Shown here piece by piece: positions 824-19,566 of a DNA stretch of 20,008 nt. Within the stretch, counting starts at the first letter, position 1. Every line of letters begins with the position of its first letter. The notes under the pieces are model-generated. The model made no database searches. It was given only the letters and a program-made list of their open reading frames with translations, and was not told the origin of the DNA. The position numbers and the translations under genes were made by a program. The DNA comes from a virus: positions 1 to 20,008 of IMG/VR virus record IMGVR_UViG_3300023184_000630; one strand, written 5' to 3'.

Positions 824-882
824 CAGTGGCCTTGGCTGTGGCTATCCAACTCATAATTGAGTTTGGATTCCGGTATACTTGA
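820..882 (+). CDS. Possible 20-aa hydrophobic micro-ORF
   Basis: An ATG at 820 overlaps the preceding stop in an ATGA junction and opens a 20-codon frame ending at TGA 880-882. The peptide is mostly hydrophobic (MTVALAVAIQLIIEFGF) with two polar residues near the end. It resembles the two other tiny membrane peptides of this block (537-620 and 1843-1932). Against it, the frame is very short and its stop lies inside the -35 box of the promoter at 879-907, so the junction may be chance. Listed as a candidate only. Confidence 0.25.
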   Translation: MTVALAVAIQLIIEFGFRYT

Positions 883-907
883 CCGCAAATGACATCTCGC
901 ATATAAT
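879..907 (+). promoter_or_regulatory. Sigma70-type promoter, placed for a leaderless transcript
   Basis: The -35 box TTGACC (879-884) and the perfect -10 box TATAAT (902-907) are separated by exactly 17 bases. Only five bases (ATACT) separate the -10 from the ATG at 913, so the expected start of transcription falls on the start codon. No ribosome binding site is present upstream of that ATG. Confidence 0.75.
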
Positions 908-912
908 ATACT

Positions 913-1143
913 ATGACTAAGAAAACAATTAAGGTAGAATTTGCCCCCGGGGCACTAGATGACGCAGACTTTGAAAGCCAAGCCGAGCTCGACGAGTTTG
1001 TTGCCAACATTACAGCCATGTTTCAAGACGGCAGTTTCTTAGAAAGCAGCCGTCCTGTGGACATGAAAGAATTGCAAGATACAGACCCTGAATTGTATGC
1101 TAAACTAACGGAATTGAACAACGACAAAAGGACATTACAATGA
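913..1143 (+). CDS. Conserved small phage protein, function unknown (76 aa)
   Basis: The product begins MTKKTIKVEFAPGALDDAD, continues with an acidic helix (QAELDEFVANITAMFQDG, about residues 23-40) and ends in a charged segment. The opening KxIKVEFAPGxxD and the MFxDGxxxxxSRPVD segment recall a short acidic protein found in marine T4-like phages; I know no function for it. The start at 913 has no Shine-Dalgarno sequence and lies five bases after a perfect -10 box, which suggests a leaderless message. The stop overlaps the next start (ATGA at 1140-1143). Probably a cytoplasmic, early-expressed protein. Confidence 0.75.
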   Translation: MTKKTIKVEFAPGALDDADFESQAELDEFVANITAMFQDGSFLESSRPVDMKELQDTDPELYAKLTELNNDKRTLQ

Positions 1144-1382
1144 TATTTGAATGGTTCACTAAAAAAGATCGAGTCCCTAGTAATGTAGTACCGTTTCCTA
1201 AACCCGAACTTGCACCTGATCCAGAACCCAAAGAACACTATCGTGTGGGCTTTACAACTGATAATGAAACTACACTTACGCTAATGTCACCGGGCGGAAT
1301 GTCATTGACATTGACAATGAATCAAGATAGTTGTGAACAACTGATTAAGATGTTACGTGCCACTTACATAGACGAGGAATAA
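1140..1382 (+). CDS. Small hypothetical phage protein (80 aa)
   Basis: The start ATG at 1140 is coupled to the previous stop by an ATGA overlap. The N-terminus (MIFEWFTKKDRVPSNVVPF) is followed by a proline/acid linker (KPELAPDPEPKEHY). A compact C-terminal part has TTDNETTLTLMSPGG and LTLTMNQDSCEQLIKML, which reads as two or three beta strands followed by a helix. No known domain or catalytic signature is visible. The stop is one base before the next ATG, so both are probably translated from one message. The function is unknown. Confidence 0.7.
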   Translation: MIFEWFTKKDRVPSNVVPFPKPELAPDPEPKEHYRVGFTTDNETTLTLMSPGGMSLTLTMNQDSCEQLIKMLRATYIDEE

Positions 1383-1383
1383 C

Positions 1384-1611
1384 ATGGACGCAAAAGACTT
1401 TATTAACGATATTGAAATTGGTATGAAGGGACTTGGGGAGTTTGAAGTACAAGTCGAAATTCCCGATAACTTTGTGTTCTACGGGGTAGTTCCGTACTAC
1501 ATGCACATTGTGAACCGAACCGCATTGGTCACAGTTCCGGCGTCAAGTGTGCAAGAGGCCCGTGAATTGGCTCTAGCATACTTTGCCGGAGGAGTTGACC
1601 CTGATGAGTAG
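1384..1611 (+). CDS. Small hypothetical phage protein (75 aa)
   Basis: The start ATG 1384 lies one base after the preceding TAA and behind a GAGGA ribosome binding site (1374-1378, five bases of spacing). The protein is acidic, with an N-terminal helix (DAKDFINDIEIGMKGLG), a beta-rich middle (EVQVEIPDNFVFYGVVPYYM, VNRTALVTVPASS) and a final helix (VQEARELALAYFAGG). The strand-strand-helix ending recalls small phage proteins of unknown role. No enzyme motif is seen. Its 3' end contains the ribosome binding site and start of the next gene, overlapping by eight bases. Confidence 0.7.
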   Translation: MDAKDFINDIEIGMKGLGEFEVQVEIPDNFVFYGVVPYYMHIVNRTALVTVPASSVQEARELALAYFAGGVDPDE

Positions 1612-1843
1612 TTTGACACGCTACTTTGAAAATAAACATGCAGACTTACCCCGACCCCGATACAACTCAGGTGATCGTGTATCGGGACGTTGGAATGGGA
1701 TTCCTTTTGTGGGAAGTGTGGTGCGTGACACCAAGCCTACTGTATTGGTACACAGCGACTTGCCTGTGCAGTTTGAGGGCAATGTTCATTATGTGTTGTC
1801 AGTTAAGCAAACGGATATGACTTGCTTACAGGTGATTGAGTAA
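1604..1843 (+). CDS. Small basic phage protein with an SGDRVxGRWNG motif (79 aa)
   Basis: A TTG at 1583 could start the frame, but the ATG at 1604 is preferred because GGAGGAG (1588-1594) lies upstream and it makes a short overlap with the previous gene. Residues about 19-38 (RYNSGDRVSGRWNGIPFVGS) form a small SH3-like strand pattern, followed by VRDTKPTVLVHSDLPVQF and HYVLSVK. This barrel-like layout, with a conserved G-D-R-V and R-W-N-G, is familiar in small phage proteins. Nucleic-acid or protein binding would be a guess. The stop overlaps the next start (TAATG). Confidence 0.7.
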   Translation: MSSLTRYFENKHADLPRPRYNSGDRVSGRWNGIPFVGSVVRDTKPTVLVHSDLPVQFEGNVHYVLSVKQTDMTCLQVIE

Positions 1844-1932
1844 TGGCTTGGATGGTGGTCATACTTTTGGTGCTCACAGGACACATGTTCTTGGCATTTA
1901 TGTTGTCGTTAGTAATTTTGATGTTGGAGTAA
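1843..1932 (+). CDS. Tiny single-pass membrane peptide (29 aa)
   Basis: The ATG at 1843 shares one base with the previous stop (TAATG). The frame runs 29 codons to TAA at 1930-1932, and its last codons supply the GGAG ribosome binding site of the next gene at 1936. Nearly every residue is hydrophobic (MAWMVVILLVLTGHMFLAF and onward, ending MLE), so it can only be a membrane-spanning peptide. The exact fit between two genes supports translation. The function is unknown; it resembles the peptide at 537-620 in size and character. Confidence 0.5.
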   Translation: MAWMVVILLVLTGHMFLAFMLSLVILMLE

Positions 1933-1935
1933 ACT

Positions 1936-2310
1936 ATGGGATTAGACATGTACGCTTATACTGCCACTCAACCCGAGGCGGATCACGAAACTGGTCAACG
2001 CGAACTTGCCTACTGGCGCAAACATGCTAACCTGCACGGTTGGATGGAACGTTTGTGGGAACACAAGGTCTTGGCCGACGGTGGTGACCCTGAAGCGCAC
2101 ACCTTCAATGGCATTGAAGTAGAACTAACTTGGGAGGATCTTGACGAGTTAGAAAAGGATATCAATGCCCGTAAATTACCCGAGACTCGAGGATTCTTCT
2201 TTGGTGATGGTGCCGACGATCACTACCGTGATGCAGACTTAAATTTTATTAGAAAAGCACGAGCCGAACTATTTCTTGGACTACGTGTATTTTATAATTC
2301 AAGTTGGTAA
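1936..2310 (+). CDS. Conserved phage protein of the MGLDMY type (124 aa)
   Basis: The start ATG follows GGAG at 1926-1929. The protein begins MGLDMYAYTA and contains AYWRKHANLHGWMERLW (about residues 30-46), both hallmarks of a soluble phage family of unknown function in which the MGLDMY opening and the YWRKxxxxHxW segment recur. Further conserved-looking parts are LTWEDLDELEKDI and the glycine/acid-rich FFFGDGADDHYRD (about 90-102), which could sit near a metal or ligand site, though this is a guess. It is cytoplasmic by composition. The stop overlaps the next start by one base. Confidence 0.75.
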   Translation: MGLDMYAYTATQPEADHETGQRELAYWRKHANLHGWMERLWEHKVLADGGDPEAHTFNGIEVELTWEDLDELEKDINARKLPETRGFFFGDGADDHYRDADLNFIRKARAELFLGLRVFYNSSW

Positions 2311-2771
2311 TGAAAAAAATCTATTATGAAAAACGTGGCCGTAGGTACTATCCTGTGGCCGAATACGATAGTGACTTGTTTAACTCTATGTCTAAGGGCA
2401 ACCATCTTGTCATGTGCTATCCCGGTGGGCATAGTATTCGCTACAATATTGATCCTGACTATGCCGCATTGATTGCTGCAGGTCGTGTTGCCGAAACAGC
2501 CATGTCAGATGCAATTCGTAAAGCCAGTGAAATGCGACCCAAGAGCGGCGATCTTACCGAAGAACAACGGGCAGCCTGGGAACATTTGATTGCGGTGTTT
2601 GGTGACGATGCACGTATGTTACAGTGGCCTGCGACCCGTGACATTGCCGAAACCGCAGTCCAAGCCTTACAAGAGGAAGCCAACAAATTGCTAACCAACC
2701 CAGCAGTTCAATTGGCATACGACCATTTTGTAATGGTAGCAGAATTAACAAAGGAACACAATGAGCGATGA
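2310..2771 (+). CDS. Conserved phage hypothetical protein (153 aa)
   Basis: The ATG at 2310 shares a base with the previous stop and is preferred to an upstream TTG at 2304. The N-terminal part (MKKIYYEKRGRRYYPVAEYD, then MSKGNHLVMCYPGG and RYNIDPDYAALIAAGR) and the helical C-terminal half (LTEEQRAAWEHLIAVFG, ATRDIAETAVQALQEEANKL) match the general layout of a protein common in tailed phages. No function is known to me and no catalytic motif is obvious. It is likely a soluble, mostly helical protein. The next gene starts 11 bases before its stop. Confidence 0.75.
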   Translation: MKKIYYEKRGRRYYPVAEYDSDLFNSMSKGNHLVMCYPGGHSIRYNIDPDYAALIAAGRVAETAMSDAIRKASEMRPKSGDLTEEQRAAWEHLIAVFGDDARMLQWPATRDIAETAVQALQEEANKLLTNPAVQLAYDHFVMVAELTKEHNER

Positions 2772-2949
2772 CTCAGTGGCTAAGCGCATGGCCGAATTAA
2801 TGGAGCCGGTGCATAGGCAAATATTAATGTGCGATGATAGACATGACCAATTGATGTTGGCCTGTGCCATGTTGACCACAGTTAAAGATCTATTTGATTT
2901 ACATATTGGTGAAGATGGGCGTAAAAAGATGTTCGAGGATTTTGTATGA
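2761..2949 (+). CDS. Small hypothetical phage protein (62 aa)
   Basis: The ATG at 2761 has an AAGGA ribosome binding site at 2751-2755. It overlaps the previous gene by 11 bases and the next by four (ATGA at 2946-2949). The product is a predicted pair of helices: an N-terminal MSDDSVAKRMAELMEPVHRQ, then a central DRHDQLMLACAMLTTVKDLF and a short charged tail. Methionine- and leucine-rich helices of this kind often pair with partners, but none can be named. It reads like a small accessory protein; the function is unknown. Confidence 0.7.
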   Translation: MSDDSVAKRMAELMEPVHRQILMCDDRHDQLMLACAMLTTVKDLFDLHIGEDGRKKMFEDFV

Positions 2950-3446
2950 ACATTTACTTGGACATGGATGATGTTGTTGCGGATTGGCATAGTGCTGCAC
3001 AAGACTTTCTTAAAATGCGTTGGAACAAAGAAGCAGAACGTATACCACAGCATGACTGGGATCGTATCAAAAACGACAGCCACTTTTATTTAGATCTTCC
3101 GTTAAAAACAGGAGCACATGACCTGGTCTCTTGGTGTAGAACATACACAAGTCGTAACCCCGGAACCGGGTTATATTTTTTAACTGCGTTGCCACATGAC
3201 TACAGTATGCCCTATGCTGCACAGGACAAGGTATGGTGGGCCAATAGGCACTTTCCCGGTATTCCTGTTTTCTTTGGGCCGTTTAGCCATGACAAATATC
3301 GTTATTGCCAAACTGCCCAAGACATCTTGATTGATGATAGGTATAGTAATTGCAGTGAATGGGTTGCCGCCGGCGGCCGTAGTCATGTGTATAAGAGTTG
3401 GGAAGAATGTCACAGTTGGATAGAAGCCACACTGGGCACACTGTAG
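2946..3446 (+). CDS. HAD-family 5'-deoxyribonucleotidase-like phosphatase
   Basis: This is a 166-aa HAD-superfamily hydrolase resembling 5'(3')-deoxyribonucleotidases, which remove phosphate from deoxynucleoside monophosphates. All four HAD motifs are visible: motif I LDMDDVVADW with the nucleophile D6 and general acid D8; motif II threonine T80 in FLTALP; a motif III lysine candidate K95 (QDKVWWANRHF); and motif IV ILIDDR with D130/D131 binding Mg2+. The length is that of the compact phage and bacterial type. In a T4-like phage this enzyme would adjust nucleotide pools during infection. The substrate is inferred from family resemblance, and other small phosphomonoesters are possible. It is the last gene before a strong terminator. 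Confidence 0.8.
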   Translation: MNIYLDMDDVVADWHSAAQDFLKMRWNKEAERIPQHDWDRIKNDSHFYLDLPLKTGAHDLVSWCRTYTSRNPGTGLYFLTALPHDYSMPYAAQDKVWWANRHFPGIPVFFGPFSHDKYRYCQTAQDILIDDRYSNCSEWVAAGGRSHVYKSWEECHSWIEATLGTL

Positions 3447-3476
3447 TTTTTGCTAACCCCTTTAACTATAGTTTTT

Positions 3477-3507
3477 AACCCCGGTGGCAACATCGGGGTT
3501 TTTTTGT
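3477..3507 (+). terminator. Intrinsic terminator with GCAA tetraloop
   Basis: A 10-bp stem (3477-3486 paired with 3491-3500, one G-T wobble) closes on a GCAA loop of the stable GNRA type. Its AACCCCG arm pairs with CGGGGTT, and seven T residues run from 3499 to 3505. It lies 30 bases after the nucleotidase stop and directly before the promoter at 3509, so it separates two transcription units. Confidence 0.92.
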
Positions 3508-3508
3508 G

Positions 3509-3537
3509 TTGACAACTGAGTTAAATATTGTTATAAT
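3509..3537 (+). promoter_or_regulatory. Full-consensus sigma70-type promoter at the start codon
   Basis: TTGACA (3509-3514), a 17-base spacer and TATAAT (3532-3537) match the sigma70 consensus at all twelve positions. The ATG at 3543 comes five bases after the -10 box, where transcription is expected to start, so the message should be leaderless. The promoter touches the T run of the preceding terminator. Confidence 0.9.
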
Positions 3538-3542
3538 TGCAT

Positions 3543-4724
3543 ATGATCACATATACCACTGTTGAAGATTATTTAGAAGTCATTGCTGGACTCAAAGATC
3601 CTGTCACACTAAAGAAAAGTGCCACACAGTCGTTCTTTGGTGAGTTTGATCCCATTGTGAGTCTGGCACGTTACGATACAGATGTACTCAATAGCATGAG
3701 TACTGCCGCCAACGAAGGTCGCGCATTAACCGAACGACAAGGTGAGTTGGCAGTTAAAATTGTCATCAAATATAAACGACAATTGGGTGCAAAAGGAATT
3801 GATGTAGCACCTATAGAGGAAAACGCACAGTGGCGTATTGCGTTACGTAAAATGGATTATACTCGTAGACTCAGTGTCATTGGCGACGAGATAGTATTAA
3901 ACTTTCCCTATAGCACTGAACTCATTGACGAGCTAAGAACATTCAAGCGCGATAGCCAAGGCTCGGGCGAATGGGACAAAGACAACAAGCAATGGCGTTT
4001 TGCTTTGACTGAATACAACCTGGTATGGCTCACCGCATGGGCCGAAATACGTGAATTTGAATTCAACAACGAAGCACGTAGACTGAATCAATTAATTCGA
4101 GACTGCGAAGCCAATCCTTATCGAATTGAGTTACAATTAACCGACACTGGTTGTGAAATCACCAACTGTCCCGACGCATTGCGCGAGTATATCAACAACA
4201 ACTTGGACGGATTTGAACTAGAAAATCTATTACGTTTAGTTGATAACAGTGCCTTGTTGGGGTTTACTGTCGGCACAGAAATTGCAGATCTTGTAGTTGC
4301 CGGCACTGATCCACGTTTCTATAATTTAGCAACCTGCCGTGAAGTAAAACTAGATCCCACTACAGTCGCAGACGATCTAGCAAGTGTGCTAGACTATGCA
4401 GATCGTACAGAACGTTGGCCAGTGGTGGTATATGAACCCGATCTCAGTGGTAAGTTACTCAAACGTCTTACCGAGTTACGTGGGCAAAACGATATTGCAC
4501 ACATCCTAAGTAAAAAAGATATCAAGTCAGGTATACCCGCAAGCAAGTATATCCATACTATAATTCCCGTCAGTTTCGACATTCCTTTGTTGATCAGTAG
4601 TGCCGGAATGATATATGGTGGAGACAAGAGTCTAATGGTACAGCAAGCAGAGAAGATTGTGTACTGTAGTGCAGATGTATATAACAAAGCAGGCCAAACA
4701 AAGGTAGCCGCAATTGCCATCTAA
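3543..4724 (+). CDS. Phage protein with HARP-like segment, possible fork-remodelling partner
   Basis: The chosen start is ATG 3543 (393 aa); the earlier TTG at 3537 would lie within the -10 box. Residues about 105-170 read as a HARP-like module (the DNA-annealing domain of SMARCAL1-type helicases): RRLSVIGDEIVLNFPYS, then a helix, then WDKDNKQWRFALTEYNL with tryptophans W144 and W151. Upstream, ALTERQGELAVKIVIKYKRQL forms a helix seen in phage helicase-like proteins. The C-terminal third has alternating strands and helices (WPVVVYEPDL, HTIIPVSFDIPLLISS, EKIVYCSADVY) reminiscent of a RecA-like fold. No Walker A, DExH or arginine-finger motif is present, so it is not an ATPase by itself. It lies two genes before the UvsW-type helicase in one operon. 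HARP assignment is by pattern and moderately sure; the function is inferred. Confidence 0.6.
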   Translation: MITYTTVEDYLEVIAGLKDPVTLKKSATQSFFGEFDPIVSLARYDTDVLNSMSTAANEGRALTERQGELAVKIVIKYKRQLGAKGIDVAPIEENAQWRIALRKMDYTRRLSVIGDEIVLNFPYSTELIDELRTFKRDSQGSGEWDKDNKQWRFALTEYNLVWLTAWAEIREFEFNNEARRLNQLIRDCEANPYRIELQLTDTGCEITNCPDALREYINNNLDGFELENLLRLVDNSALLGFTVGTEIADLVVAGTDPRFYNLATCREVKLDPTTVADDLASVLDYADRTERWPVVVYEPDLSGKLLKRLTELRGQNDIAHILSKKDIKSGIPASKYIHTIIPVSFDIPLLISSAGMIYGGDKSLMVQQAEKIVYCSADVYNKAGQTKVAAIAI

Positions 4725-5577
4725 TTTATGTATTGACTTTGGCCGGGACAATTACACTCTAAAATTTCGTGTATTGGATACTCCCGTTGCAGAGTTGTGG
4801 ACCGAGCGTATGAACGCACGGGGCGAATACTTGCTTGACCATCCTGATAGATTCTATGGCTTTAATTCTCGCGAAGAAGAAATAGCAAAGTCCCAACGAC
4901 TATTGCAACGATGTGTTGATATTATAAACAGTTACAGTAACATCATTGCACGGCCAGTTGATGCAACTGATCAAGATTGTTTAAACTATCTACATAACAT
5001 ATTTGAAGTTTATCACGGACTACTAGGTGCACAACAACATGAGTTTTGGGTTCGTGCGCCAGACACAGTTAAAAACGCTCTAGCAGAATTAAACATTAAT
5101 GTACATAGAGCAGAGTCTGCCGTAAGATCCAATAACCCAAGAGTTGTTTGTACATGGTACGGCATGCCAAAAACTAAAACATTGCCAACAGACTTAATGT
5201 CTACGTACGGTACACTGACTACTGAGTTTGGCAGGGTTTATTTAAATTATGCAGAGATTGGAAAAACTTTAGAGGACTTGACTGTTGATAGGGACAACTA
5301 CATTGGCGATGATGCGTTTCGACCATTTAATCATTATAGCGCAGATTTTGTTGTTAGGTTTTCGGAAATAGATCCTGCAGAACGAATTCTTGCAATGAAA
5401 CAATACTACACTCAAAATCAAAAGTTCTTTACTGACCGAGGATTTGATAAGTTTGATGATCCTAGACTACTGCCACTGCGGTTTCCTGTTGCCAAGTTAG
5501 CGACAGAGTTATCGCAAGAGCAAATACTGGCAGACATAGGTTGCAGACAGTACATAAATCGTGTATACTTTGAATGA
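4714..5577 (+). CDS. Conserved phage hypothetical protein (287 aa, TTG start)
   Basis: The frame begins at a TTG at 4714, inside the last codons of the previous gene (11-base overlap). The ATG at 4728 is out of frame, and no in-frame ATG lies close by, so TTG is the best start, although it has no clear ribosome binding site. The protein is soluble and mixed in structure, with NLCIDFGRDNYTLKFRVLDT at the N-terminus, a helical middle (EEEIAKSQRLLQRCVDIINS, LNYLHNIFEVYHGLLGA) and aromatic-rich strands later (FGRVYLNYAEIGKTLEDL, FNHYSADFVVRFSEID). No family or catalytic motif is recognised. Its place between the HARP-like protein and UvsW suggests a role in DNA metabolism, but nothing in the sequence proves it. 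Confidence 0.7.
   Translation: MPSNLCIDFGRDNYTLKFRVLDTPVAELWTERMNARGEYLLDHPDRFYGFNSREEEIAKSQRLLQRCVDIINSYSNIIARPVDATDQDCLNYLHNIFEVYHGLLGAQQHEFWVRAPDTVKNALAELNINVHRAESAVRSNNPRVVCTWYGMPKTKTLPTDLMSTYGTLTTEFGRVYLNYAEIGKTLEDLTVDRDNYIGDDAFRPFNHYSADFVVRFSEIDPAERILAMKQYYTQNQKFFTDRGFDKFDDPRLLPLRFPVAKLATELSQEQILADIGCRQYINRVYFE
5541..5569 (+). promoter_or_regulatory. Possible sigma70-type promoter before the UvsW gene
   Basis: TTGCAG (5541-5546) and TATACT (5564-5569) are separated by exactly 17 bases inside the end of the preceding gene. The ATG at 5574 follows after four bases and a second in-frame ATG at 5577 after seven. The boxes are weaker than those at 3509 and 14865, and the match may be chance. 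Confidence 0.35.
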
Positions 5578-7034
5578 TGCAGGTTAAGTTAATAATTCGA
5601 GATGAAGTCAATGTCAAGTTAGAAGGACTTGATGTCAGTGTACGCAAGAAACTAGTAGACAAGTTCAAATACGAAATTCCCGGAGCACGTTACCAGCCCA
5701 GTGTACGATTGGGCCGTTGGGACGGTAAAGTTCCTTTCTTTAATTTGGGCGGCACAACCTACATTAACTTGTTACCTGAAATATTACCTATATTAGAAAA
5801 CTTAAACTATGATGTAGAACTAGAAGATTTTAGAGACTACAGTACAAACTTCGAGTTTGATGAGATTACAGAAAACACATTTGCACACAAAACTTGGCCC
5901 AAGGGACATCCACAAGAAGGCAAGCCTATTGTACTCAGGGATTATCAACCCGAGATACTAAACAACTTCTTACGGAACAAACATAGTGTACAAGAAGTTG
6001 CCACAGGTGCCGGCAAGACCATTATGACTGCGGCCTTGAGTCAAAGTGTAGAACGATATGGCCGCAGTATCGTTATTGTTCCCAACAAAAGTCTAGTAAC
6101 ACAAACAGAAGCAGACTATAAGAACCTAGGACTTGATGTTGGTGTTTACTTTGGCGACCGCAAAGAGATAGGACGTACACATACCATCTGTACTTGGCAA
6201 AGTCTAAACATCATGTTAAAGAACACCAAGTCAGGTGATGCTGAAGTTGCGATAGGTGACTTTATTGAGGGTGTTGTTTGTATTATGGTAGACGAAGTAC
6301 ACATGGCTAAAGCCGACGCACTTAAAACATTACTCACAGGTGTGTTTGCACACATACCTATTCGTTGGGGTCTAACTGGAACAATTCCCAAGGAGGATCA
6401 TGCAAGGATAAGTATACTTTGTAGCCTAGGCCCAGTTGTTGGTAAACTCAGTGCTAGTGATCTTCAAGAGGCAGGACATCTTGCCCAATGTCATGTTAAC
6501 ATTGTACAACTCGTTGACCACGTAGAGTATAAAGAATATCAACAAGAGTTAAAATACCTATTGGAAACCACAGGAAGGTTGACCTATATGCGTAATTTGA
6601 TTCTTCGAGTCAATGCTACAGGTAATACACTAGTACTTGTTGATCGTGTGGCAACAGGGAAACTGTTAGTAGAATATTTAGGTGAACAAGCGGTCTTCGT
6701 AAGCGGAGCAACCAAGGGCACAACAAGGCAAGCAGAATATGATGAAATTGCAACAAGTACTGGTAAGATTATTGTGGCGACTTACGGTGTGGCCGCTGTG
6801 GGTATTAATATTCCAAGGATTTTTAATCTGGTTCTTATTGAGCCCGGAAAGAGCTTTGTGCGTGTTATACAAAGCATTGGGCGAGGCATTAGAAAAGCAG
6901 AAGACAAAGACCATGTAGAGATCTGGGACATAACCAGTACCTGCAAATTTGCCAAGAGGCATTTGACAAGTCGCAAGAAGTTTTACACTGAAGCGCAGTA
7001 CCCATATTCAATAGAAAAGGCTGAATGGCAATGA
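5574..7034 (+). CDS. uvsW: UvsW-type superfamily 2 DNA/RNA helicase
   Basis: This is a 486-aa helicase close to T4 UvsW in length and motif order. UvsW regresses and rescues stalled forks and unwinds R-loops and D-loops, helping the shift from origin- to recombination-dependent replication. The N-terminal domain (EGLDVSVRKKLVDKFKYEIP, then YQPSVRLGRWDGK) matches the UvsW DNA-binding part. Motifs seen: Q-like LRDYQ before the core; Walker A ATGAGKT at 143-149; DEVH at 240-243; motif III LTGT at 267-270; motif VI QSIGRGIR at 433-440 with arginines R437 and R440. The start overlaps the previous stop as ATGA, with another ATG at 5577. A possible promoter lies just upstream. Identification is strong. 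Confidence 0.93.
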   Translation: MMQVKLIIRDEVNVKLEGLDVSVRKKLVDKFKYEIPGARYQPSVRLGRWDGKVPFFNLGGTTYINLLPEILPILENLNYDVELEDFRDYSTNFEFDEITENTFAHKTWPKGHPQEGKPIVLRDYQPEILNNFLRNKHSVQEVATGAGKTIMTAALSQSVERYGRSIVIVPNKSLVTQTEADYKNLGLDVGVYFGDRKEIGRTHTICTWQSLNIMLKNTKSGDAEVAIGDFIEGVVCIMVDEVHMAKADALKTLLTGVFAHIPIRWGLTGTIPKEDHARISILCSLGPVVGKLSASDLQEAGHLAQCHVNIVQLVDHVEYKEYQQELKYLLETTGRLTYMRNLILRVNATGNTLVLVDRVATGKLLVEYLGEQAVFVSGATKGTTRQAEYDEIATSTGKIIVATYGVAAVGINIPRIFNLVLIEPGKSFVRVIQSIGRGIRKAEDKDHVEIWDITSTCKFAKRHLTSRKKFYTEAQYPYSIEKAEWQ

Positions 7035-7534
7035 GGATTTTAACTCTGGAAAATAGAAGTTACGAGATGAACGAGATACCAAATGAAATTGACGAACTCA
7101 ATTTTTGTGTATTAGATAACAGCAATCCCAAGGAGCCCGATTACTTTTATATCCCGTTAATTTTTATGGAGAGTTTTAATAGCCCGGCACTTGTATTAAA
7201 GATTGGCGAACACGTTGTGCGTATGCCTGTAGACTGGCAACTGTTAATTGGCGAAAAAGAACAAGGCGATTTAGAAGTAGTCCCATTAACAAGTATAAAT
7301 GATCGTGGATTTAGTGCCTTTGCCTTTAACCCACGTACAAGTTTCCGCCCGGACTTTTATCCTGTAGAGATTATAGACATTTATCAAGATGTCAAATGGT
7401 ATTTCCCTAAACTCAAACCCGGCCAGATGTTGGCAGTACCCTTACAAGAAGGTATTGAAGGCCCCATGTGCGTGTACTTTGTCAAAGACATTTCGAGACA
7501 AAGTGAAGTAGTAGACTATAATAAAATTTGGTAA
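7031..7534 (+). CDS. Conserved T4-like phage protein next to UvsW (167 aa)
   Basis: An ATG at 7025 exists, but ATG 7031 makes the usual ATGA overlap with the UvsW stop and is preferred. The protein is beta-rich and soluble. Segments that look conserved are FYIPLIFMESFNSPALVLKIG, VVRMPVDWQLLIGEKEQGDL, FNPRTSFRPDFYPVEI and DVKWYFPKLKPGQMLAVPL, and it ends in a W like many of its relatives. Proteins with this sequence of blocks recur in T4-like phages of marine bacteria, where they are annotated only as hypothetical. No catalytic site can be identified. The acidic, aromatic character could suit a protein-protein or virion role, but this is not supported further. Confidence 0.75.
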   Translation: MRILTLENRSYEMNEIPNEIDELNFCVLDNSNPKEPDYFYIPLIFMESFNSPALVLKIGEHVVRMPVDWQLLIGEKEQGDLEVVPLTSINDRGFSAFAFNPRTSFRPDFYPVEIIDIYQDVKWYFPKLKPGQMLAVPLQEGIEGPMCVYFVKDISRQSEVVDYNKIW

Positions 7535-7535
7535 C

Positions 7536-9214: not shown

Positions 9215-9855
9215 GGTTAATTGCCGCAGGATGTAGTTTCGTATACGGTAATGAACTAAGCGATGTTGGTGAACATGCCGCGCATCCAAGCCGATTGAGT
9301 TTCTCTGCACTATTGGCGCAACAACATGGCTTGGAATATTGGTGTTGTGCAGTACCTGGTGGGGGAAATGATACTGCGGTTAGACAAGTAATTGAATCTA
9401 AACCTGTCCAAGGCGACATGGTATTAGTAAATTGGACCTTTGCTGATAGACACGAATTTTACTTTGAGAACGAGGGGTGGCGAAACATAATTCCCAGTAA
9501 AAATACGTTTTGTAAAGAATTCTTTACTAATTTACAGTCTGAATACTCTGTTTATCATACTGTAAAGAACATTGTGTTTCTATCCAACTACTTGGATAAA
9601 AAAGGTGTACCTTATATATACACATTTGCTGATATGAAGTTACCCTATAACACCGATGCAGCTAGAATCTTAGCCGACGAGATAGACACTACACGATGTT
9701 TTTACTGGAGTGATGATGCTAACTTTTTGGGATGGGCAAAACAATTGGACTATGCCATTGGGCCCGGTAGTCACCCATTAGATGCAGCACACACAAAAAG
9801 TGCAGAATTAATCGATCCCTTATTCTCTCGAATATTAAATGACATACACCTGTAA
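9211..9855 (+). CDS. SGNH-like hydrolase (214 aa, GTG start)
   Basis: The start GTG at 9211 overlaps the previous stop (GTGA) and has AGGAG at 9201-9205 five bases upstream; this is preferred to the ATG at 9181, which would lie deep in the preceding gene. The protein resembles the SGNH/GDSL hydrolases, which remove acyl or acetyl groups: block I AAGCSFVYG with candidate nucleophile S9; block III-like VPGGGND with G51, N53 and D54; and near the end GPGSHPLDAAH, which offers H188 or the D191-H194 DxxH pair as the catalytic dyad. A VNWTFADRHEF strand follows block III. No signal peptide is seen, so it would act inside the cell or on the virion. The substrate is unknown. Confidence 0.65.
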   Translation: MRLIAAGCSFVYGNELSDVGEHAAHPSRLSFSALLAQQHGLEYWCCAVPGGGNDTAVRQVIESKPVQGDMVLVNWTFADRHEFYFENEGWRNIIPSKNTFCKEFFTNLQSEYSVYHTVKNIVFLSNYLDKKGVPYIYTFADMKLPYNTDAARILADEIDTTRCFYWSDDANFLGWAKQLDYAIGPGSHPLDAAHTKSAELIDPLFSRILNDIHL

Positions 9856-10522
9856 GTATTGTACAAAAGAATTCCGCAAGGAAAGTACACTCACGGTGCA
9901 TTTGTGTGAGGCCAAGCGCAGATATCAACAACGCGACGAAACAGGTGTGCAGTTGGGCTTTAAGGCATACATTCGTTTCTACGAAACTACACAGGGCAGT
10001 GCTCGACTGAAAACATATGACGACTTTGCTACTAGTCCTTATTATAATGCTTTTGTTAAGTTTGGAAGACACCTTGTTGCTATTCGTTGTATTAATACCG
10101 GCAGTTATACTGATTGGCTTTTAAAGAATAATAAGAAGTTAGATTATTGGGGCAAGGATGCACTATATACTGAGTGGCTTCCAGAATATTTACGACGTGA
10201 GGCCACGCAAGACGCCTTAGAGCGGGCCTTAAAGGAGATGCAAGATTATGCTGACGCCCATCCGGAATTACAAAACGGCTTCAGGGACTATTTTAGATAC
10301 GGTAATGCTAATCGTATTGTTTACCATATTAGTACTGGTAGGATCAGTCCTTGGATTGTGTTTAACTGTGCTGGCGGGATTGAGTTTCTTGAAGGACTTG
10401 ATCCTGGACAAACCGAAATCGTCCTCCCGTGGATAGACCCCGATTATTGGCAACAGCGGTTTAAAGACTATCTTGCTGACACAGAGTGGGTTAAAGACAT
10501 ATTACAAAAGGCAGGCCTATGA
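9839..10522 (+). CDS. Zinc-finger phage protein, function unknown (227 aa)
   Basis: The N-terminus (YTCKYCTKEFRKESTLTVHLC) carries a single zinc finger with ligands C5, C8, H21 and C23, a C2HC variant of the classical C2H2 layout. It is followed by a basic helix (EAKRRYQQRDETGVQLGFKAY). The remaining 190 residues look like a compact mixed domain with FYETTQGSARLKTYDDFATS, YNAFVKFGRHL, DWLLKNNKKLDYWGKDALY and, near the end, STGRISPWIVFNCAGG. This overall arrangement is familiar from T4-like phages of cyanobacteria and other marine hosts, always as a hypothetical protein. Nucleic-acid binding by the finger is likely but unproved. It overlaps the SGNH gene by 17 bases. Confidence 0.8.
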   Translation: MTYTCKYCTKEFRKESTLTVHLCEAKRRYQQRDETGVQLGFKAYIRFYETTQGSARLKTYDDFATSPYYNAFVKFGRHLVAIRCINTGSYTDWLLKNNKKLDYWGKDALYTEWLPEYLRREATQDALERALKEMQDYADAHPELQNGFRDYFRYGNANRIVYHISTGRISPWIVFNCAGGIEFLEGLDPGQTEIVLPWIDPDYWQQRFKDYLADTEWVKDILQKAGL

Positions 10523-11106
10523 AATTTAAGAGCGACATTGATATTGACTTTGGTAACAGAGATACGGCACTGCGACATTTACAGCATACGCCTGCAGGGA
10601 TTGTTCGCGATGGTAAACTAATAAAGCATAATACAGGTGTGTATGCCACAGACATTCCCACAGATCCATTTACCGGCATTGCCAGCATAGATCACAAGTT
10701 GGCAGAAGACTTGGGCTACATGAAGTTGGACTTGCTGAATGTATCTTTATATACGCAGATAAAGAATGAACAACATTTAACAGATCTCATGTCACAAGAA
10801 CCCATATGGGATTTATTGCTAGACCCTGGGTTCTGTAGCCTGTTAATACACATTGGCGCACACCATGATCTATTATTAAAGTGCCCCGAACCTGTGAATA
10901 GTATTCCCAGAATGGCTATGTTTTTGGCCTTGATACGCCCAGGTAAACGTCATTTAGTTGGTCGTACTTGGCAAGAGATCAGTAAAACAGTATGGAACGC
11001 TACTGACGAATACACATTTAAAAAGTCGCATTCAGTGGCTTATGCACATCTAGTTGCAGTACACATGAACCTAATCTGCGAACAAATCAGTCAGGGCTAC
11101 AGTTAA
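10519..11106 (+). CDS. DnaE-like mini protein with polymerase core landmarks (195 aa)
   Basis: The product shows, in the right order, landmarks of the bacterial replicative polymerase DnaE (DNA polymerase III alpha, C family): SDIDIDFGNRD (residues 5-15) resembling the PDIDIDF motif with two catalytic aspartates; DPFTGIASIDH then LGYMKLDLLNV (65-75), resembling the KxDFLGL motif whose third catalytic aspartate would be D71; an ALIRPG segment (137-142) like the ALYRPG loop; and FKKSHSVAYAHL (167-178), resembling the FNKSHAxAYAxL motif. DnaE is about 1,100 residues, so PHP, most of the thumb and fingers, and the C-terminal domains are missing. Whether it can bind nucleotides or DNA is unknown. 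It is coupled to the zinc-finger gene by an ATGA overlap. Confidence 0.75.
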   Translation: MKFKSDIDIDFGNRDTALRHLQHTPAGIVRDGKLIKHNTGVYATDIPTDPFTGIASIDHKLAEDLGYMKLDLLNVSLYTQIKNEQHLTDLMSQEPIWDLLLDPGFCSLLIHIGAHHDLLLKCPEPVNSIPRMAMFLALIRPGKRHLVGRTWQEISKTVWNATDEYTFKKSHSVAYAHLVAVHMNLICEQISQGYS

Positions 11107-11474
11107 ACTACCTTGCGTACTAGGGTTATGCTACGGCGTTTGCTACGCTTCATGGCCATTTCTTTAAGGCTAACTTGAGGTCCTACTTTAACCTCAACGT
11201 CTTTGCTGTTCATAGTTTTAACACAGAACTTGAACTGACTCCACTCGGCTTTTAAGAACACGTTGATGGGGATAATCCTATTACTTTCCCACCACCAAGT
11301 ATCGCCCAGGGCCAGGAACAACACCTTTTGCTCGGGTGTTCGTAAGCCTGCGAAATCGTAGATTGTAGTAATCTGTTCATCGGCGTTTTGTATTATTCCC
11401 AAGTATTCGTTGCCCCCATATGTCAATAGGGTCAAATAAGGGTATTGTTCAAGTAGTTTTTTTATTTCGTCCAC
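11103..11474 (-). CDS. Conserved T4-like phage protein on the minus strand (123 aa)
   Basis: A GTG start at 11474 gives a 123-aa soluble protein with conserved-looking blocks: MDEIKKLLEQYPYLTLLTYGGN, then DFAGLRTPEQKVLFLALGDTW with a WWWESNRIIPINVFL segment (about 60-74), and a basic C-terminus (KRSKRRSITLVRKVV). Proteins with this arrangement occur in marine T4-like phages without known function; the basic end suggests nucleic-acid or capsid contact, a guess. Its stop TAA shares the TTAA of 11103-11106 with the stop of the opposing gene, so the two end head to head with no terminator between. A late-type CATAAATA motif lies four bases upstream of the GTG. Confidence 0.75.
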   Translation of the reverse strand: MDEIKKLLEQYPYLTLLTYGGNEYLGIIQNADEQITTIYDFAGLRTPEQKVLFLALGDTWWWESNRIIPINVFLKAEWSQFKFCVKTMNSKDVEVKVGPQVSLKEMAMKRSKRRSITLVRKVV

Positions 11475-11478
11475 GTTT

Positions 11479-11484
11479 TATTTA
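11479..11484 (-). promoter_or_regulatory. T4-type late promoter motif (minus strand)
   Basis: On the minus strand the sequence reads CATAAATA, then AAAC, then the GTG start at 11474. It fits the NATAAATA pattern of T4-like late promoters (T4 itself uses TATAAATA). Transcription from such a motif begins about six bases after its last A, that is at the start codon, so the message would be leaderless. Confidence 0.6.
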
Positions 11485-11522
11485 TGGACATATCAAAAGT
11501 GGATTTTACTTTTAACTTGCGC

Positions 11523-11528
11523 TAAATA
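11523..11528 (+). promoter_or_regulatory. Late-type promoter motif before the fibre genes
   Basis: GCTAAATA followed by ATATG lies 16 bases before the ATG at 11545; CTAAATA is a variant of the T4 late motif. It drives the fibre pair and, with the minus-strand motif at 11479-11484, makes a divergent promoter region in this roughly 70-base gap. The start would lie near 11535, giving a leader of about ten bases. Confidence 0.5.
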
Positions 11529-11544
11529 TGTAAAAGAATATGAA

Positions 11545-12039
11545 ATGATAACAGTCAAAGCCTACATCTACCCCAATACCGCCGAGGTACAAGTATTTGA
11601 CCCCAGCATATTTTCAGTAAGGAATCGTATTGTGTATAGCCGTCCAATTAAAGTTTATCAGGGTATAGATAATCCTGTACAAGTCATAGTTAAGAATCAA
11701 GATCAAAAAGCAGTAAATCTTACAGGATATACAGTACAGGCCCAGATACAAGACCCCACCAATGAAGTCACAATCAATACTTATGCAGTCACATTTGCTA
11801 ATATTGCTACAGGCCTAGGAACTTGCACATTGGATGCAACTACATTGAGTAGTCTAGAAAATAGATTTTACAAATTGACCTTTAGAACAATTAAAACTAG
11901 TGATAATTCTCAACAACCCGTTTATGTTGACGATAACTATAGTGTACCATTGGACCTAGAGATATTACCAGCTTATTACAGCGTCACTGCAGCAGTTCCT
12001 AGCACCGACGATATTGTATTTGATGGAGGTGTGCTATGA
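11545..12039 (+). CDS. Probable virion/baseplate protein preceding the fibre (164 aa)
   Basis: The protein is beta-rich and has no enzyme motif. Residues 33-62 (RPIKVYQGIDNPVQVIVKNQ, then DQKAVNLTGYTV) have the pattern of an immunoglobulin-like beta sandwich domain used in phage baseplate upper proteins and fibre connectors (a G-D/N-P-V strand pair then a V-N-L-T-G turn). The rest continues as strands with regular hydrophobic spacing (VTFANIATGLGTCTLDA, VYVDDNYSVPLDLEI) and an acidic tail. It is coupled to the large fibre gene by an ATGA overlap (12036-12039). It is probably an adaptor between the fibre and the virion, or a fibre partner. A late-type promoter motif lies just upstream. Role inferred from context and fold pattern. 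Confidence 0.6.
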   Translation: MITVKAYIYPNTAEVQVFDPSIFSVRNRIVYSRPIKVYQGIDNPVQVIVKNQDQKAVNLTGYTVQAQIQDPTNEVTINTYAVTFANIATGLGTCTLDATTLSSLENRFYKLTFRTIKTSDNSQQPVYVDDNYSVPLDLEILPAYYSVTAAVPSTDDIVFDGGVL

Positions 12040-14861
12040 CCATTGCTAACGTAAATTTAAGACAAGTACTACTAAAGCGTGGTAACACCAATATTACTAG
12101 TGCTTACACTGGTCCTGTTGGTGAGATAGTGATTGACACAACTGCCAACAGCATACGTGTACAAGATGGTGTAACTGCCGGCGGCCACTTGATTGCCACA
12201 ACAACAAGTAGTTCTAATATTGCCAGTGGTGCATTTTATGCCAACGTAGATCAAACTACCGGGCAAGTTAACATACAAGGTAATCTAATTCCATCTGCTA
12301 ATGCGGTATACAGCATTGGGTCAAACACACAACAATGGAAAAATATTTATACAGCAAGTAACGTCTATATTGGTAATCTAGCATTAAGTAATGTTGGCGG
12401 GCAATTAGCCATTAATGGTACTGTGGTCAGTGGCACATTTTCAAATTCCAACGTGGCCAGTTACTTGCCAACAAGTAGTATCATAACTGGCATTAATGCC
12501 AATGTCACTGCAGCCAATGCGGTCATTGCCACACTGGCCAACACCAATGCCAATGTTACTGCGGCCAACGCCGTTATACTTTCCCATACTAATTCATTGA
12601 TAGCAGCCAACGCAGCCATTACTGTCGCCAATACTGCACTAAAGACGTATGTTGACAACAGGTTTAGTACTCTAACAAACGGTGCATCTGATGCCCTAGA
12701 TACCCTGCTGGAAATTGGATCTGCATTAGGAAATAATGTTGGCTTCTCGTCAACAATAGTAACTTGGTTGGGTAATATAAGTGCCAACGTTACTGCAGCC
12801 AACGTAAACATATCTACATTGCAAAGCAATGCTGGTGTGCAAGCAGCCGCCATCGCTGCAGCCAACGCACGTATACAAACACTAGATGCCAACGTTGGTA
12901 GTTTTTATACCTATGCCAACACTACGTTTATTACCACTACCGGTACATATTCAAATACCAACACGGCGGCCTACTTAACTATAAGCACAGTAATCTCTGG
13001 AATTAATGCCAATGTCGTTGGCGCCAATACCGCAATAGTAACTGCCAACACCGCAATGAAGACGTATGTTGATGCAGTCACCACTGCTTGGACTGCAAAT
13101 GCATCAACTCAATTGAGTCAAATTACTGCAGCCAATACAAATATATCTGCACTACAAGCCAACGTTGGTAGTTTTTACACTTGGGCAAATACAAATTTTG
13201 ATACAAGTAATTATGGTAATGCCAACGTAATTTCTTATTTGAGTAGTTACTACACTTGGGCTAATGCCAACGTGGCAGGACTAAGCAGTCAGATCACAGG
13301 CGCCAACACCGCAATAGTAACTGCCAACACCGCAATGAAGACGTATGTTGATGCAGTCACCACTGCTTGGACCGCCAACGCTGGCTCCCAGGCCAATTCT
13401 TTACTTGGTGCTAATGCAGCCATTGTAACTGCTAACACAGCGTTGAAAGGTTATGTCGACACACAACTTAGCACGTTGACCAATGGTGCCTCGGCGGCCC
13501 TAGATACTCTGTTGGAAATTGGATCAGCATTGGGCAACAACGCCAACTTCTCGGGTGTGATGGTTACTTGGTTAGGTAACGTAACTGCAAACATCACTGC
13601 AGCCAACACCAATATATCTACAGGCGCTACAAACATATCTGCGCTACAGGCCAACTTAGGTGCAACGCAAATATGGGCCAATGCCAACATTGCCAGTCTT
13701 ACTGCCAATTTGGGTAGCACACAAATATGGGCCAATGCCAACATTGCCAGTATTAACACAAACTTAGGTGCAACGCAAATATGGGCCAATGCCAACATTG
13801 CCAGTCTTACTGCCAATTTGGGTAGCACACAAATATGGGCCAATGCCAACATTGCCAGTCTTACTGCCAATTTGGGTAGCACACAAATATGGGCCAATGC
13901 CAACATTGCCAGTTTAAACAACAGTATCATTGGAGCCAATACTGCTTGGCAATCAAATGCAGCCGCACAACAGGTGCAGATCAATAACATAGTCACAAAT
14001 GCCAATGCCAATGCTGCAGCCTACCTAGCGTCCGGAAATGATTCTACGATAACAAGTTTGCAAAATTCAATTGTTTATATTCAAGGAACATTGAGCGGAA
14101 TACCCGGGCAAGCTCTTGCTACTTCGGCTCAACTTGATGCAGCAAATGCAGCCATTATAGGTGCTAATGTAGCATGGCAAGCAAACGCAGCCGCTCAGGC
14201 AGGACAAATAACTGGAGCCAATGCCGCAATAGTCTCTGCCAACACCGCATTAAAGACGTATGTTGACACTCAATTAAGCACATTGACCAATGGTGCCTCG
14301 GCGGCCCTAGACACGTTACTGGAGATTGGTACTGCTCTAGGTAACAACGCCAACTTCTCGGGTGTGATGGTTACTTGGTTAGGTAACGTAACTGCAAACA
14401 TCACCGGAGCCAACGTAAACATATCTGCATTGCAAAGCAATACTGGGGCATTGCAGAACCAAATAACCGGTGCCAATGCCGCAATAGTTACTGCCAACAC
14501 TGCAATGAAGGCGTATGTTGATGCAAATACACTATCACAAGCTGCATCAATTAATTCACTCAATACTGCTCAAGTGAACCTTAGCGGACAGTTTGCCAGT
14601 CTCGTAATCGGAGCCAATGCAAATACTGCGGCATACTTGACCACATCAACAGGTAACATTGCGGCAGGTAATGTTACTATTACAAATAAGATTACAGCTA
14701 ACTCTATATCGGTTACTAGTGTTGTACAATACGCTAATTTGACTACAACCCAAATAAACGCAATATCTCCAACATCAGGAGGAATGACAGTGTTTAATTA
14801 TACAACTGGAAATATACAAGTGTATAATGGTACCAAATGGGCTAATATAACCTTGTCATAA
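12036..14861 (+). CDS. Long repetitive tail-fibre-like protein (941 aa)
   Basis: The N-terminus (residues about 6-50) reads RQVLLKRGNTNITSAYTGP, then GEIVIDTTANSIRVQDGV and TAGGHLIA, matching the N-terminal domain of major-tropism-determinant type fibres (virion attachment). Next, about residues 85-120, is a SIGSNTQQWKNIYTASNVYIGN segment of the kind that precedes shaft domains. A very long shaft rich in Ala, Asn, Thr and Ile follows, with NANV/TAAN repeats, three ALDTLLEIGSALGNN blocks about 268 residues apart, and a five-fold 18-aa tandem repeat (539-628). The end (TTTQINAISPTSGGMTVFNY to WANITLS) resembles the C-terminal cap of phage fibres. It is probably trimeric and binds the host surface. 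Receptor-binding residues cannot be assigned. Confidence 0.85.
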   Translation: MTIANVNLRQVLLKRGNTNITSAYTGPVGEIVIDTTANSIRVQDGVTAGGHLIATTTSSSNIASGAFYANVDQTTGQVNIQGNLIPSANAVYSIGSNTQQWKNIYTASNVYIGNLALSNVGGQLAINGTVVSGTFSNSNVASYLPTSSIITGINANVTAANAVIATLANTNANVTAANAVILSHTNSLIAANAAITVANTALKTYVDNRFSTLTNGASDALDTLLEIGSALGNNVGFSSTIVTWLGNISANVTAANVNISTLQSNAGVQAAAIAAANARIQTLDANVGSFYTYANTTFITTTGTYSNTNTAAYLTISTVISGINANVVGANTAIVTANTAMKTYVDAVTTAWTANASTQLSQITAANTNISALQANVGSFYTWANTNFDTSNYGNANVISYLSSYYTWANANVAGLSSQITGANTAIVTANTAMKTYVDAVTTAWTANAGSQANSLLGANAAIVTANTALKGYVDTQLSTLTNGASAALDTLLEIGSALGNNANFSGVMVTWLGNVTANITAANTNISTGATNISALQANLGATQIWANANIASLTANLGSTQIWANANIASINTNLGATQIWANANIASLTANLGSTQIWANANIASLTANLGSTQIWANANIASLNNSIIGANTAWQSNAAAQQVQINNIVTNANANAAAYLASGNDSTITSLQNSIVYIQGTLSGIPGQALATSAQLDAANAAIIGANVAWQANAAAQAGQITGANAAIVSANTALKTYVDTQLSTLTNGASAALDTLLEIGTALGNNANFSGVMVTWLGNVTANITGANVNISALQSNTGALQNQITGANAAIVTANTAMKAYVDANTLSQAASINSLNTAQVNLSGQFASLVIGANANTAAYLTTSTGNIAAGNVTITNKITANSISVTSVVQYANLTTTQINAISPTSGGMTVFNYTTGNIQVYNGTKWANITLS
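13021..13093 (+). repeat. 73-bp direct repeat in the fibre gene, first copy
   Basis: This block recurs at 13300-13372, 279 bases (93 codons, in frame) downstream, with one mismatch in 73 bases. It encodes AATPQ-free shaft sequence of the AIVTANTAMKTYVDAVTTAW type. Near-identity at DNA level, beyond what the protein would require, points to recent duplication or conversion. Confidence 0.85.
13300..13372 (+). repeat. 73-bp direct repeat in the fibre gene, second copy
   Basis: Second copy of the block at 13021-13093. Because the copies are in frame and 279 bases apart, recombination between them would delete or add 93 residues of shaft without breaking the reading frame. Confidence 0.85.
13536..13597 (+). 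repeat. 62-bp exact direct repeat in the fibre gene, first copy
   Basis: The run starting AACAACGCCAACTTCTCGGG is repeated exactly at 14343-14404, 807 bases (269 codons) downstream. A further 29-base identical run at 13476-13504 pairs with 14283-14311 at the same offset. A third, more diverged version of this block lies about 804 bases upstream near 12690-12790. All encode the LGNNANFSGVMVTWLGN type of segment. Confidence 0.9.
13650..13919 (+). repeat. Five tandem 54-bp repeats in the fibre shaft
   Basis: Five in-frame copies of a 54-base unit encode the 18-residue motif ANLG(A/S)TQIWANANIASLT (residues 539-628). Copies 2, 4 and 5 (GST variant) are nearly identical in DNA, and copies 1 and 3 (GAT variant) resemble each other, which suggests growth by unequal recombination or slippage. 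Each unit probably forms one turn of a shaft or coiled-coil structure. Confidence 0.95.
14343..14404 (+). repeat. 62-bp exact direct repeat in the fibre gene, second copy
   Basis: Second copy of the run at 13536-13597. Exact identity over 62 bases in a fibre gene is a substrate for homologous recombination, which could change shaft length by 269 codons in frame. Confidence 0.9.
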
Positions 14862-14864
14862 TAG

Positions 14865-14893
14865 TTGACCTTGCTCCGAGTTTCCTATATAAT
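14865..14893 (+). promoter_or_regulatory. Sigma70-type promoter at the primase start codon
   Basis: TTGACC (14865-14870), a 17-base spacer and a perfect TATAAT (14888-14893) lie in the 38-base gap after the fibre gene. The ATG at 14900 is six bases after the -10 box, at the expected transcription start, so the primase message should be leaderless. The AGG before the ATG abuts it and is too close to serve as a ribosome binding site. Confidence 0.85.
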
Positions 14894-14899
14894 AGTAGG

Positions 14900-15934
14900 A
14901 TGCTTAACTCAATTCTTGACACAGTAACCAGTTTGCTTCCTGGAAAAAGGAAAACAAACTCGGTGTCGGGATGGATCAGTTTTAATGCCGTCTGCTGTCA
15001 TCACCGTGGGGAGTCGCCGGACTCTCGAGGCAGAGGCGGCATTATCACCAATGCCACAGGCAGCATCAGTTACAGTTGTTTTAACTGCAATTACACCGCC
15101 AACTACACACCAGGCAGGCACCTAAACTACAAGTTCCGTAAACTACTGACGTGGTTGGGTGCCGACGAAAATACTGTCAAACGACTGGTCATTGATGCTA
15201 TACGTATCAAGGAACTAGTCGAGCCCGAATCAGTAGAAGCACCACGAGAAGAAATAGTATTCAAACCAAGGCCCTTACCTGAACAAGCACAGACCTTACA
15301 AGCCTTACACACATTCTATGAACTAGCCAACAATAACACCACAGTACCACGTGAGTTCCACGATGCAGTAATTTATGCAGCCAGTAGAAAAATTGATCTG
15401 ACTCGGTACGACTGTTACTGGACTCCGGAACGGGCTTATAACTTACATAAACGATTGATCATTCCGTTCACTTGGCAGAATGAGGTCATTGGTTATACTG
15501 CCCGTGCTGTTTACGATGATGTCAGTCCCAAGTACTACAGTCAGTACGACACCGACTATGTGTACAATGTGGATCGGCAACGTAACGATTCTAAATTTGT
15601 CGTTGTGGTTGAAGGTCCAATCGACGCAATGGCCATAGATGGTGTAGCAATACTCAGCAACGAGTGCAGTGAAGTGCAAGCAGACATTATTGACAGTTTA
15701 GCACGTGAAGTTATTGTAGTACCCGACAGAGATCGTGCAGGCGTAAAACTAATTGACAGTGCTTTGGAATATGGATGGCATGTGAGCTTTCCTGTATGGC
15801 AAGAAACTTGCAAAGATGTTAGCGAAGCTGTTGAGAGGTATGGAAAATTGTTTGTGCTCAAGAGCATCATTGCGGCACGTGAAACCGGCAGGTTAAAAAT
15901 TGAACTAAAAAAGAAGCGATTAAATACGATATGA
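14900..15934 (+). CDS. 61: DNA primase of the T4 gp61 type
   Basis: This 344-aa protein matches T4 gp61 (342 aa) in length and layout. It makes RNA primers for lagging-strand synthesis in complex with the replicative helicase. The N-terminal zinc-binding part has C32, C33, H35 and the C60-x-x-C63 pair, within a WISFNAVCCHHRGESPD to YSCFNCNY frame seen in phage primases. The TOPRIM catalytic core follows, with E238 in VVVVEGPIDAMAID and the D276-x-D278 pair in VPDRDRAG. Helical regions separate the two domains. The gene has its own sigma70-type promoter at its start codon and is coupled to the helicase gene by an ATGA overlap (15931-15934), as expected for a primosome pair. Identification is strong. 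Confidence 0.92.
   Translation: MLNSILDTVTSLLPGKRKTNSVSGWISFNAVCCHHRGESPDSRGRGGIITNATGSISYSCFNCNYTANYTPGRHLNYKFRKLLTWLGADENTVKRLVIDAIRIKELVEPESVEAPREEIVFKPRPLPEQAQTLQALHTFYELANNNTTVPREFHDAVIYAASRKIDLTRYDCYWTPERAYNLHKRLIIPFTWQNEVIGYTARAVYDDVSPKYYSQYDTDYVYNVDRQRNDSKFVVVVEGPIDAMAIDGVAILSNECSEVQADIIDSLAREVIVVPDRDRAGVKLIDSALEYGWHVSFPVWQETCKDVSEAVERYGKLFVLKSIIAARETGRLKIELKKKRLNTI
15921..15926 (+). promoter_or_regulatory. Possible late-type promoter motif before the helicase gene
   Basis: ATTAAATA followed by CGAT lies four bases before the helicase ATG at 15931. It resembles the T4 late motif at the TAAATA core but is inside the primase coding end and differs at the flank, so it may be chance. It has the same start-codon spacing as the minus-strand late motifs. 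Confidence 0.3.
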
Positions 15935-19521: not shown

Positions 19522-19526
19522 AGAAA

Positions 19527-19532
19527 TATTTA
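19527..19532 (-). promoter_or_regulatory. T4-type late promoter motif for the second radical SAM gene
   Basis: On the minus strand the sequence reads GATAAATA, TTTCT, ATG. The last A of the motif at 19527 places the expected transcription start at 19521, the A of the start codon, predicting a leaderless late message. No ribosome binding site is present. Confidence 0.65.
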
Positions 19533-19566
19533 TCAAGACATCTGTATCTATAAATTATATAACAAC

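Follow-up and report, generated by a model that had tools for sequence, protein, structure and literature searches.

Sigma70-type promoters placed at start codons predict a class of leaderless messages for replication genes in a clade of environmental phages

Introduction

When a sigma70-type promoter lies so close to a gene that only a few bases separate its −10 box from the ATG, where does the message begin, and how does the ribosome find its start codon? This question is raised by three promoters in an isolated fragment of a viral record, IMGVR_UViG_3300023184_000630, whose 20,008 bases were analysed as a whole and are referred to here as the window. Transcription from sigma70 promoters usually starts at the seventh base after the −10 box. 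Ribosomes bind the 5′-terminal AUG of leaderless mRNAs without the aid of a Shine-Dalgarno sequence (reviewed in PMC9031893). A sequence-only reading of the window had proposed that the three promoters produce messages of this kind, and that the distances between such promoters and the next ATG should reveal it.

Results

Each of the three promoters pairs a TTGACC or TTGACA box with a perfect TATAAT across a 17-base spacer, and the arrangements described in the sequence-only reading, including gaps of 5, 5 and 6 bases to the ATG, are exact in every letter and coordinate. The promoters, the genes behind them and the adjoining features are these:

879..907, + strand: promoter 1; TTGACC 879-884, spacer 17, TATAAT 902-907; gap of 5 to the ATG at 913
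913..1143, + strand: predicted leaderless gene, 76 aa, behind promoter 1; the next gene starts at 1140 in an ATGA overlap
3477..3507, + strand: terminator-like hairpin (3477-3500) followed by a T run, directly 5′ of promoter 2
3509..3537, + strand: promoter 2; TTGACA 3509-3514, spacer 17, TATAAT 3532-3537; 12/12 consensus; gap of 5 to the ATG at 3543
3543..4724, + strand: predicted leaderless gene, 393 aa, VEDYL family, uncharacterised; two genes 5′ of the UvsW-like helicase
5574..7034, + strand: UvsW-like helicase; downstream gene in the promoter 2 unit, in ATGA overlap with the preceding ORF
14865..14893, + strand: promoter 3; TTGACC 14865-14870, spacer 17, TATAAT 14888-14893; gap of 6 to the ATG at 14900
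14900..15934, + strand: predicted leaderless DNA primase gene, 344 aa, behind promoter 3
15931..17349, + strand: DnaB-like replicative helicase, in ATGA overlap with the primase

No Shine-Dalgarno-like motif precedes the ATGs at 913, 3543 or 14900, as had been claimed, and the genes starting at 1140, 5574 and 15931 do begin in ATGA stop/start overlaps, the device that had been attributed to coupled downstream genes. The label "HARP-like", by contrast, found no backing in Pfam or PHROG: the 3543 product has no Pfam match, its PHROG match is weak (E 0.007) and carries no name, and the HARP identity is thus unsupported. The further claim that the A of the ATG is the first transcribed base agrees with the spacing in part, since the gap of 6 fits the canonical +1 while the A behind a gap of 5 is the sixth base after the −10 box, one short of the usual seventh.

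When both strands were scanned for TTGACN-N16..18-TATAAT, the window yielded no matches beyond these three sites, which are also the top three scores among its 69 promoter-like sites. Dinucleotide shuffling of the window (300 shuffles) produced a mean of 0.09 such promoters and a maximum of 2, but never an ATG 5-7 bases after one of them, in agreement with the earlier judgement that the pattern is not due to chance. An accidental pattern set before ATGs that are not real starts could appeal to the small number of sites in the window, three only, and to the 913 gene, for which no relatives were found in viral contigs; the shuffles, together with the clade statistics and the codon-position signal described below, speak against such an accident and make its probability next to negligible.

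Several other genes of the window were noticed in passing. The 941-aa protein encoded at 12036-14861 contains many near-repeats (GANTAIVTANTAMKTYVD..., ATQIWANANIASL...) and resembles a tail fibre (PHROG tail fiber match). Two similar-looking radical-SAM-like genes, 17346-18503 (+) and 18457-19536 (−), are convergent, with overlapping 3′ ends, and the former matches Pfam Radical_SAM. A small membrane-protein-like gene at 313-540 (MKLNDVLQWAGA...) is located inside an operon, and its look-alikes in G003 (L099) and L138 stand behind leaderless promoters with a gap of 6; members of this family may thus start by coupling in some genomes and from leaderless messages in others.

The distance test was carried out on relatives of the window. 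Relatives of the primase (14900) number in the hundreds in viral contigs, and the best 80 were used; 17 larger relative records were fetched, one duplicate was excluded, and the clade statistics refer to the remaining 16 contigs plus the window. A site was counted as promoter-like if it matched 11 of the 12 consensus bases, and the ATG had to open an ORF of at least 60 aa. At a gap of 6, 17 ATG ORFs were found against 0.46 expected (background 0.0033 per position; P 3e-21). With each gene counted once, promoter-ATG distances in the clade are bimodal: 21 genes fall at gaps of 5-9, with a peak at 6 and no Shine-Dalgarno sequence (0/21), only 2 at 10-17, 30 at 18-35, 21 of them with a Shine-Dalgarno sequence, and 6 at 36-60. 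Genes in the sparse zone of 10-17 bases would have a leader, but one too short to accommodate a Shine-Dalgarno sequence. The distribution thus has the sharp peak at 5-7 bases anticipated by the sequence-only reading, and with it a separate, leadered class. Across the 53 promoter-adjacent genes of the clade, Shine-Dalgarno sequences are absent (0/53), an absence that arises partly by construction because TATAAT takes up the same stretch.

Cultured jumbo phages served as controls. The same scan gave 3 sites at gaps of 5-7 in RaK2 (3.9 expected) and 1 in PA5oct (2.1 expected). Because neither phage shows a peak, the peak in the clade is not produced by the method, and a leaderless peak as a general feature of jumbo phages is ruled out. 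These results also bear on the possibility that promoters come to lie near genes through lack of intergenic space, without functional consequence, the real messages being longer and originating at upstream promoters. Intergenic gaps are short, promoter 3 being fitted inside the 38 bases between the stop at 14861 and the primase ATG at 14900, and read-through from upstream units is possible at 14900. However, crowding of this sort does not predict the narrow peak at 6, the valley at 10-17 and the second, Shine-Dalgarno-bearing peak at 18-35; nor does it fit the missing peak in RaK2 and PA5oct, the terminator-like hairpin that isolates promoter 2, or the retention of −35 box, −10 box and spacing in orthologues, and we consider it extremely improbable.

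Conservation by gene family points in the same direction as the distances. A promoter lies 5-9 bases from the start codon in 41 of 44 distinct upstream regions of the primase family, in 11 of 12 of the VEDYL (3543) family and in 10 of 14 of an exonuclease family (220-240 aa), and none of these upstream regions carries a Shine-Dalgarno sequence (0/44, 0/12 and 0/14, respectively). For the DnaB-like helicase family, 20 of 44 distinct upstream regions contain a separate promoter for this gene, at gaps that range from 5 to 9. Upstream of the primases, positions −75 to −46 are nearly random (entropy 1.80 of 2 bits) while the promoter geometry is kept. Within the 3543 family, the gap of 5 occurs in 2 of 11 promoter-bearing members, the window's gene being one.

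The ATGs themselves behave as start codons. In the primases, codon-position entropy from codon 2 on is 0.83/0.61/1.56, with variation mostly in third positions, and because this pattern begins right after the promoter-adjacent ATG, that ATG is taken to be the start. The window primase has no second Met within roughly its first 240 residues, and the N-termini of the VEDYL family are conserved, consistent with the predicted ATG as its start. The few primase relatives that have no promoter (L072, L075, L079) start with TTG and have unrelated upstream sequence.

Where exactly the polymerase starts can be narrowed by the bases around the ATG. Bacterial RNA polymerase favours a pyrimidine at −1 and a purine at +1, and T or C immediately precedes the ATG at 42 of 53 promoter-adjacent starts of the clade versus 402 of 835 other starts, which fits a polymerase start on the A of the ATG. 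The predicted messages are also less structured over their first 12 bases than other gene starts (0.74 vs 0.64 unpaired; P 7e-4). In 46 non-redundant primase upstream regions the gap is 6 (34), 7 (10) or 8 (2), with no other values; the gaps of 7 and 8, like the range of gaps in the helicases, would suit transcripts that start 1-4 bases before the ATG, or heterogeneously, and carry a tiny leader with no Shine-Dalgarno sequence, translation still proceeding from the 5′ end. The modal gap of 6, which puts the A on the canonical +1, and the pyrimidine preceding it argue against such near-leaderless messages, and we regard them as unlikely, although a gap of 7-9 may leave 1-3 leader bases.

A different start might also result if TATAAT were read by a phage-encoded or phage-modified transcription factor rather than according to the sigma70 expectation. 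T4 late promoters, for example, depend on gp55 for recognition and have no TTGACA-type −35 box. In the window, by contrast, a TTGAC(A/C)-type −35 is present at 17 bases from the −10 box, and it is conserved at this spacing across the relatives' families. Jumbo phages that have no RNA polymerase of their own often encode sigma-factor homologues (PMC13282480), but none of the window proteins searched against Pfam and PHROG was identified as a sigma factor, and reading by a phage factor appears very improbable.

The same arrangement was found in other environmental viral contigs. Among the matches listed for the exact pattern with a gap of 6, the ATG opens an ORF of at least 60 aa in 83 of 130 and a Shine-Dalgarno sequence occurs in 2; among those listed for a gap of 12, the corresponding counts are 35 of 118 and 10. 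Contigs chosen for the 12-base gap, and hence not biased to gaps of 5-7, still have the 5-7 peak (16 vs 2.1 expected; P 8e-10). In a qualitative comparison of the top 25 families of each set, the genes behind leaderless promoters in these contigs are often exonucleases, primases, polymerases and ligases, and the leadered set contains sigma factors, regulators and tail genes, as well as some ligases. The relatives G005, G006 and G003 (e.g. L107, L109, L112, L099, L101) possess a second, clustered class of promoters, the TTGACTTTTTGGTAAAATGACTGTATAAT-type sites. Behind each lies a leader of ~30 bases, nearly identical from site to site and containing a Shine-Dalgarno-like GGAG, and then a small ORF; these TTGACTTTTTGGTAAAATGACTGTATAAT-type sites look like repeated promoter-leader cassettes.

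No cultured close relative of the window phage was found, and a host search in genome contigs returned two matches only, both in apparently mis-binned sediment MAGs. The primases of Atu_ph07, PA5oct, RaK2, PBECO4, Munch and Phosso are about 30-39% identical to that of the window. Unlike the window clade, RaK2, PBECO4, Munch and Phosso have ordinary Shine-Dalgarno-like leaders before their primases. In PA5oct, the exonuclease (EST35_0240, 41% identical; expected 5′ end 158242) has a promoter 7 bases before its annotated ATG. The PA5oct primase has a promoter at a gap of 6 if its start is taken to be a second in-frame GTG, which lies two codons downstream of the annotated one. These are the only two PA5oct genes with a leaderless-type arrangement, and both belong to families that are leaderless in the window clade. 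The annotated PA5oct primase start (L379, L385; 145884) is a GTG immediately 3′ of TATAAT, which ends at 145883, and this annotation is probably two codons too long. Three further pattern matches were discarded: those in PA5oct at 12831 and 216211 are not 5′ of real genes, and that in Munch at 76305 is inside an annotated gene.

Discussion

Leaderless mRNA is the best explanation of the three promoters, given the distance classes, the conservation in orthologues, the start-codon signal and the null controls. The 913, 3543 and primase genes probably have leaderless mRNAs, transcribed from sigma70 promoters situated at the start codon. What had been proposed from the window gains support from the distance peak in relatives and the conservation in orthologous genes, a comparative support that reaches the 3543 and primase genes but not the 913 gene. 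The main weakness of the leaderless reading for the 913 and 3543 genes is their gap of 5: with the A as the sixth base after the −10 box and the G as the eighth, some transcripts could start inside the ATG.

We propose that host sigma70 RNA polymerase would start on the A of the ATG, or within 1-2 bases of it, and that ribosomes would then recognise the 5′-terminal AUG without a Shine-Dalgarno sequence; both the start base and the binding mode are what we infer. Downstream genes of the units would be translated via their stop/start overlaps, consistent with translational coupling. The hairpin before promoter 2 should stop read-through from upstream, and its position directly 5′ of this promoter makes a longer, read-through leader unlikely for the 3543 unit. 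Because leadered promoters with Shine-Dalgarno sequences are in use in these phages as well, leaderless starts would represent a distinct, maintained class, which appears to cover many DNA replication and repair genes.

Leaderless genes are already a known kind. The lambda cI message made from PRM belongs to the single repressor gene of a temperate phage. It is named as a leaderless phage mRNA in a review (PMC9031893). The leaderless messages known from phages are, like this one, isolated cases, in contrast to the group of replication genes predicted here for a lytic-type phage. In bacterial TA-led genes, a sigma70-like −10 box (TANNNT) about 10-12 bases before the start codon led to the inference of leaderless mRNAs (Zheng et al. 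2011, PMC3160421); the window and its relatives likewise keep about 5-9 bases between the end of the −10 box and the start codon. However, TA-led genes were described on bacterial chromosomes, whereas the arrangement found here belongs to genomes of lytic-type phages, includes a full −35 box and precedes conserved replication genes. In Deinococcus-Thermus, experiments have shown that a −10 box kept at constant distance before the ORF drives leaderless mRNA, mostly without a classical −35 box, and addition of a −35 box at 17 bases raised expression (PMC12340547); the window promoters differ from this type in that the −35 box at 17 bases is present and conserved. The giant Bacillus phage AR9 has mapped 5′ ends with leaders of 26-491 bases, and the authors of that study note that leaderless transcripts are frequent in phages (PMC5312081); AR9 is a large phage with long leaders that encodes its own RNA polymerases, unlike the predicted leaderless genes described here. 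Searches of the open-access literature, in which subscription journals are mostly not represented, brought up no account of leaderless messages as a gene class in lytic phages, and a conserved class of leaderless replication genes in such phages seems undescribed.

The advantages suggested by the sequence-only reading, escape from leader-targeting factors and 70S initiation during host takeover, are speculative, and the label "early" for the 913 gene has no support. One may further speculate that the clade maintains two deliberate translation classes, one led by Shine-Dalgarno sequences and one leaderless for replication and repair, and that a shift of ribosomes to 5′-AUG (70S) initiation is the switch that turns on the DNA replication genes; we offer this as a tentative and rather doubtful idea. 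For annotation, a TATAAT 5-9 bases upstream marks start codons in these phages, which gene finders based on Shine-Dalgarno sequences may mis-score. If the leaderless class is real, these phages would provide a natural two-class system for asking why selection keeps leaderless mRNAs, and would also let one ask whether infection alters ribosome initiation.
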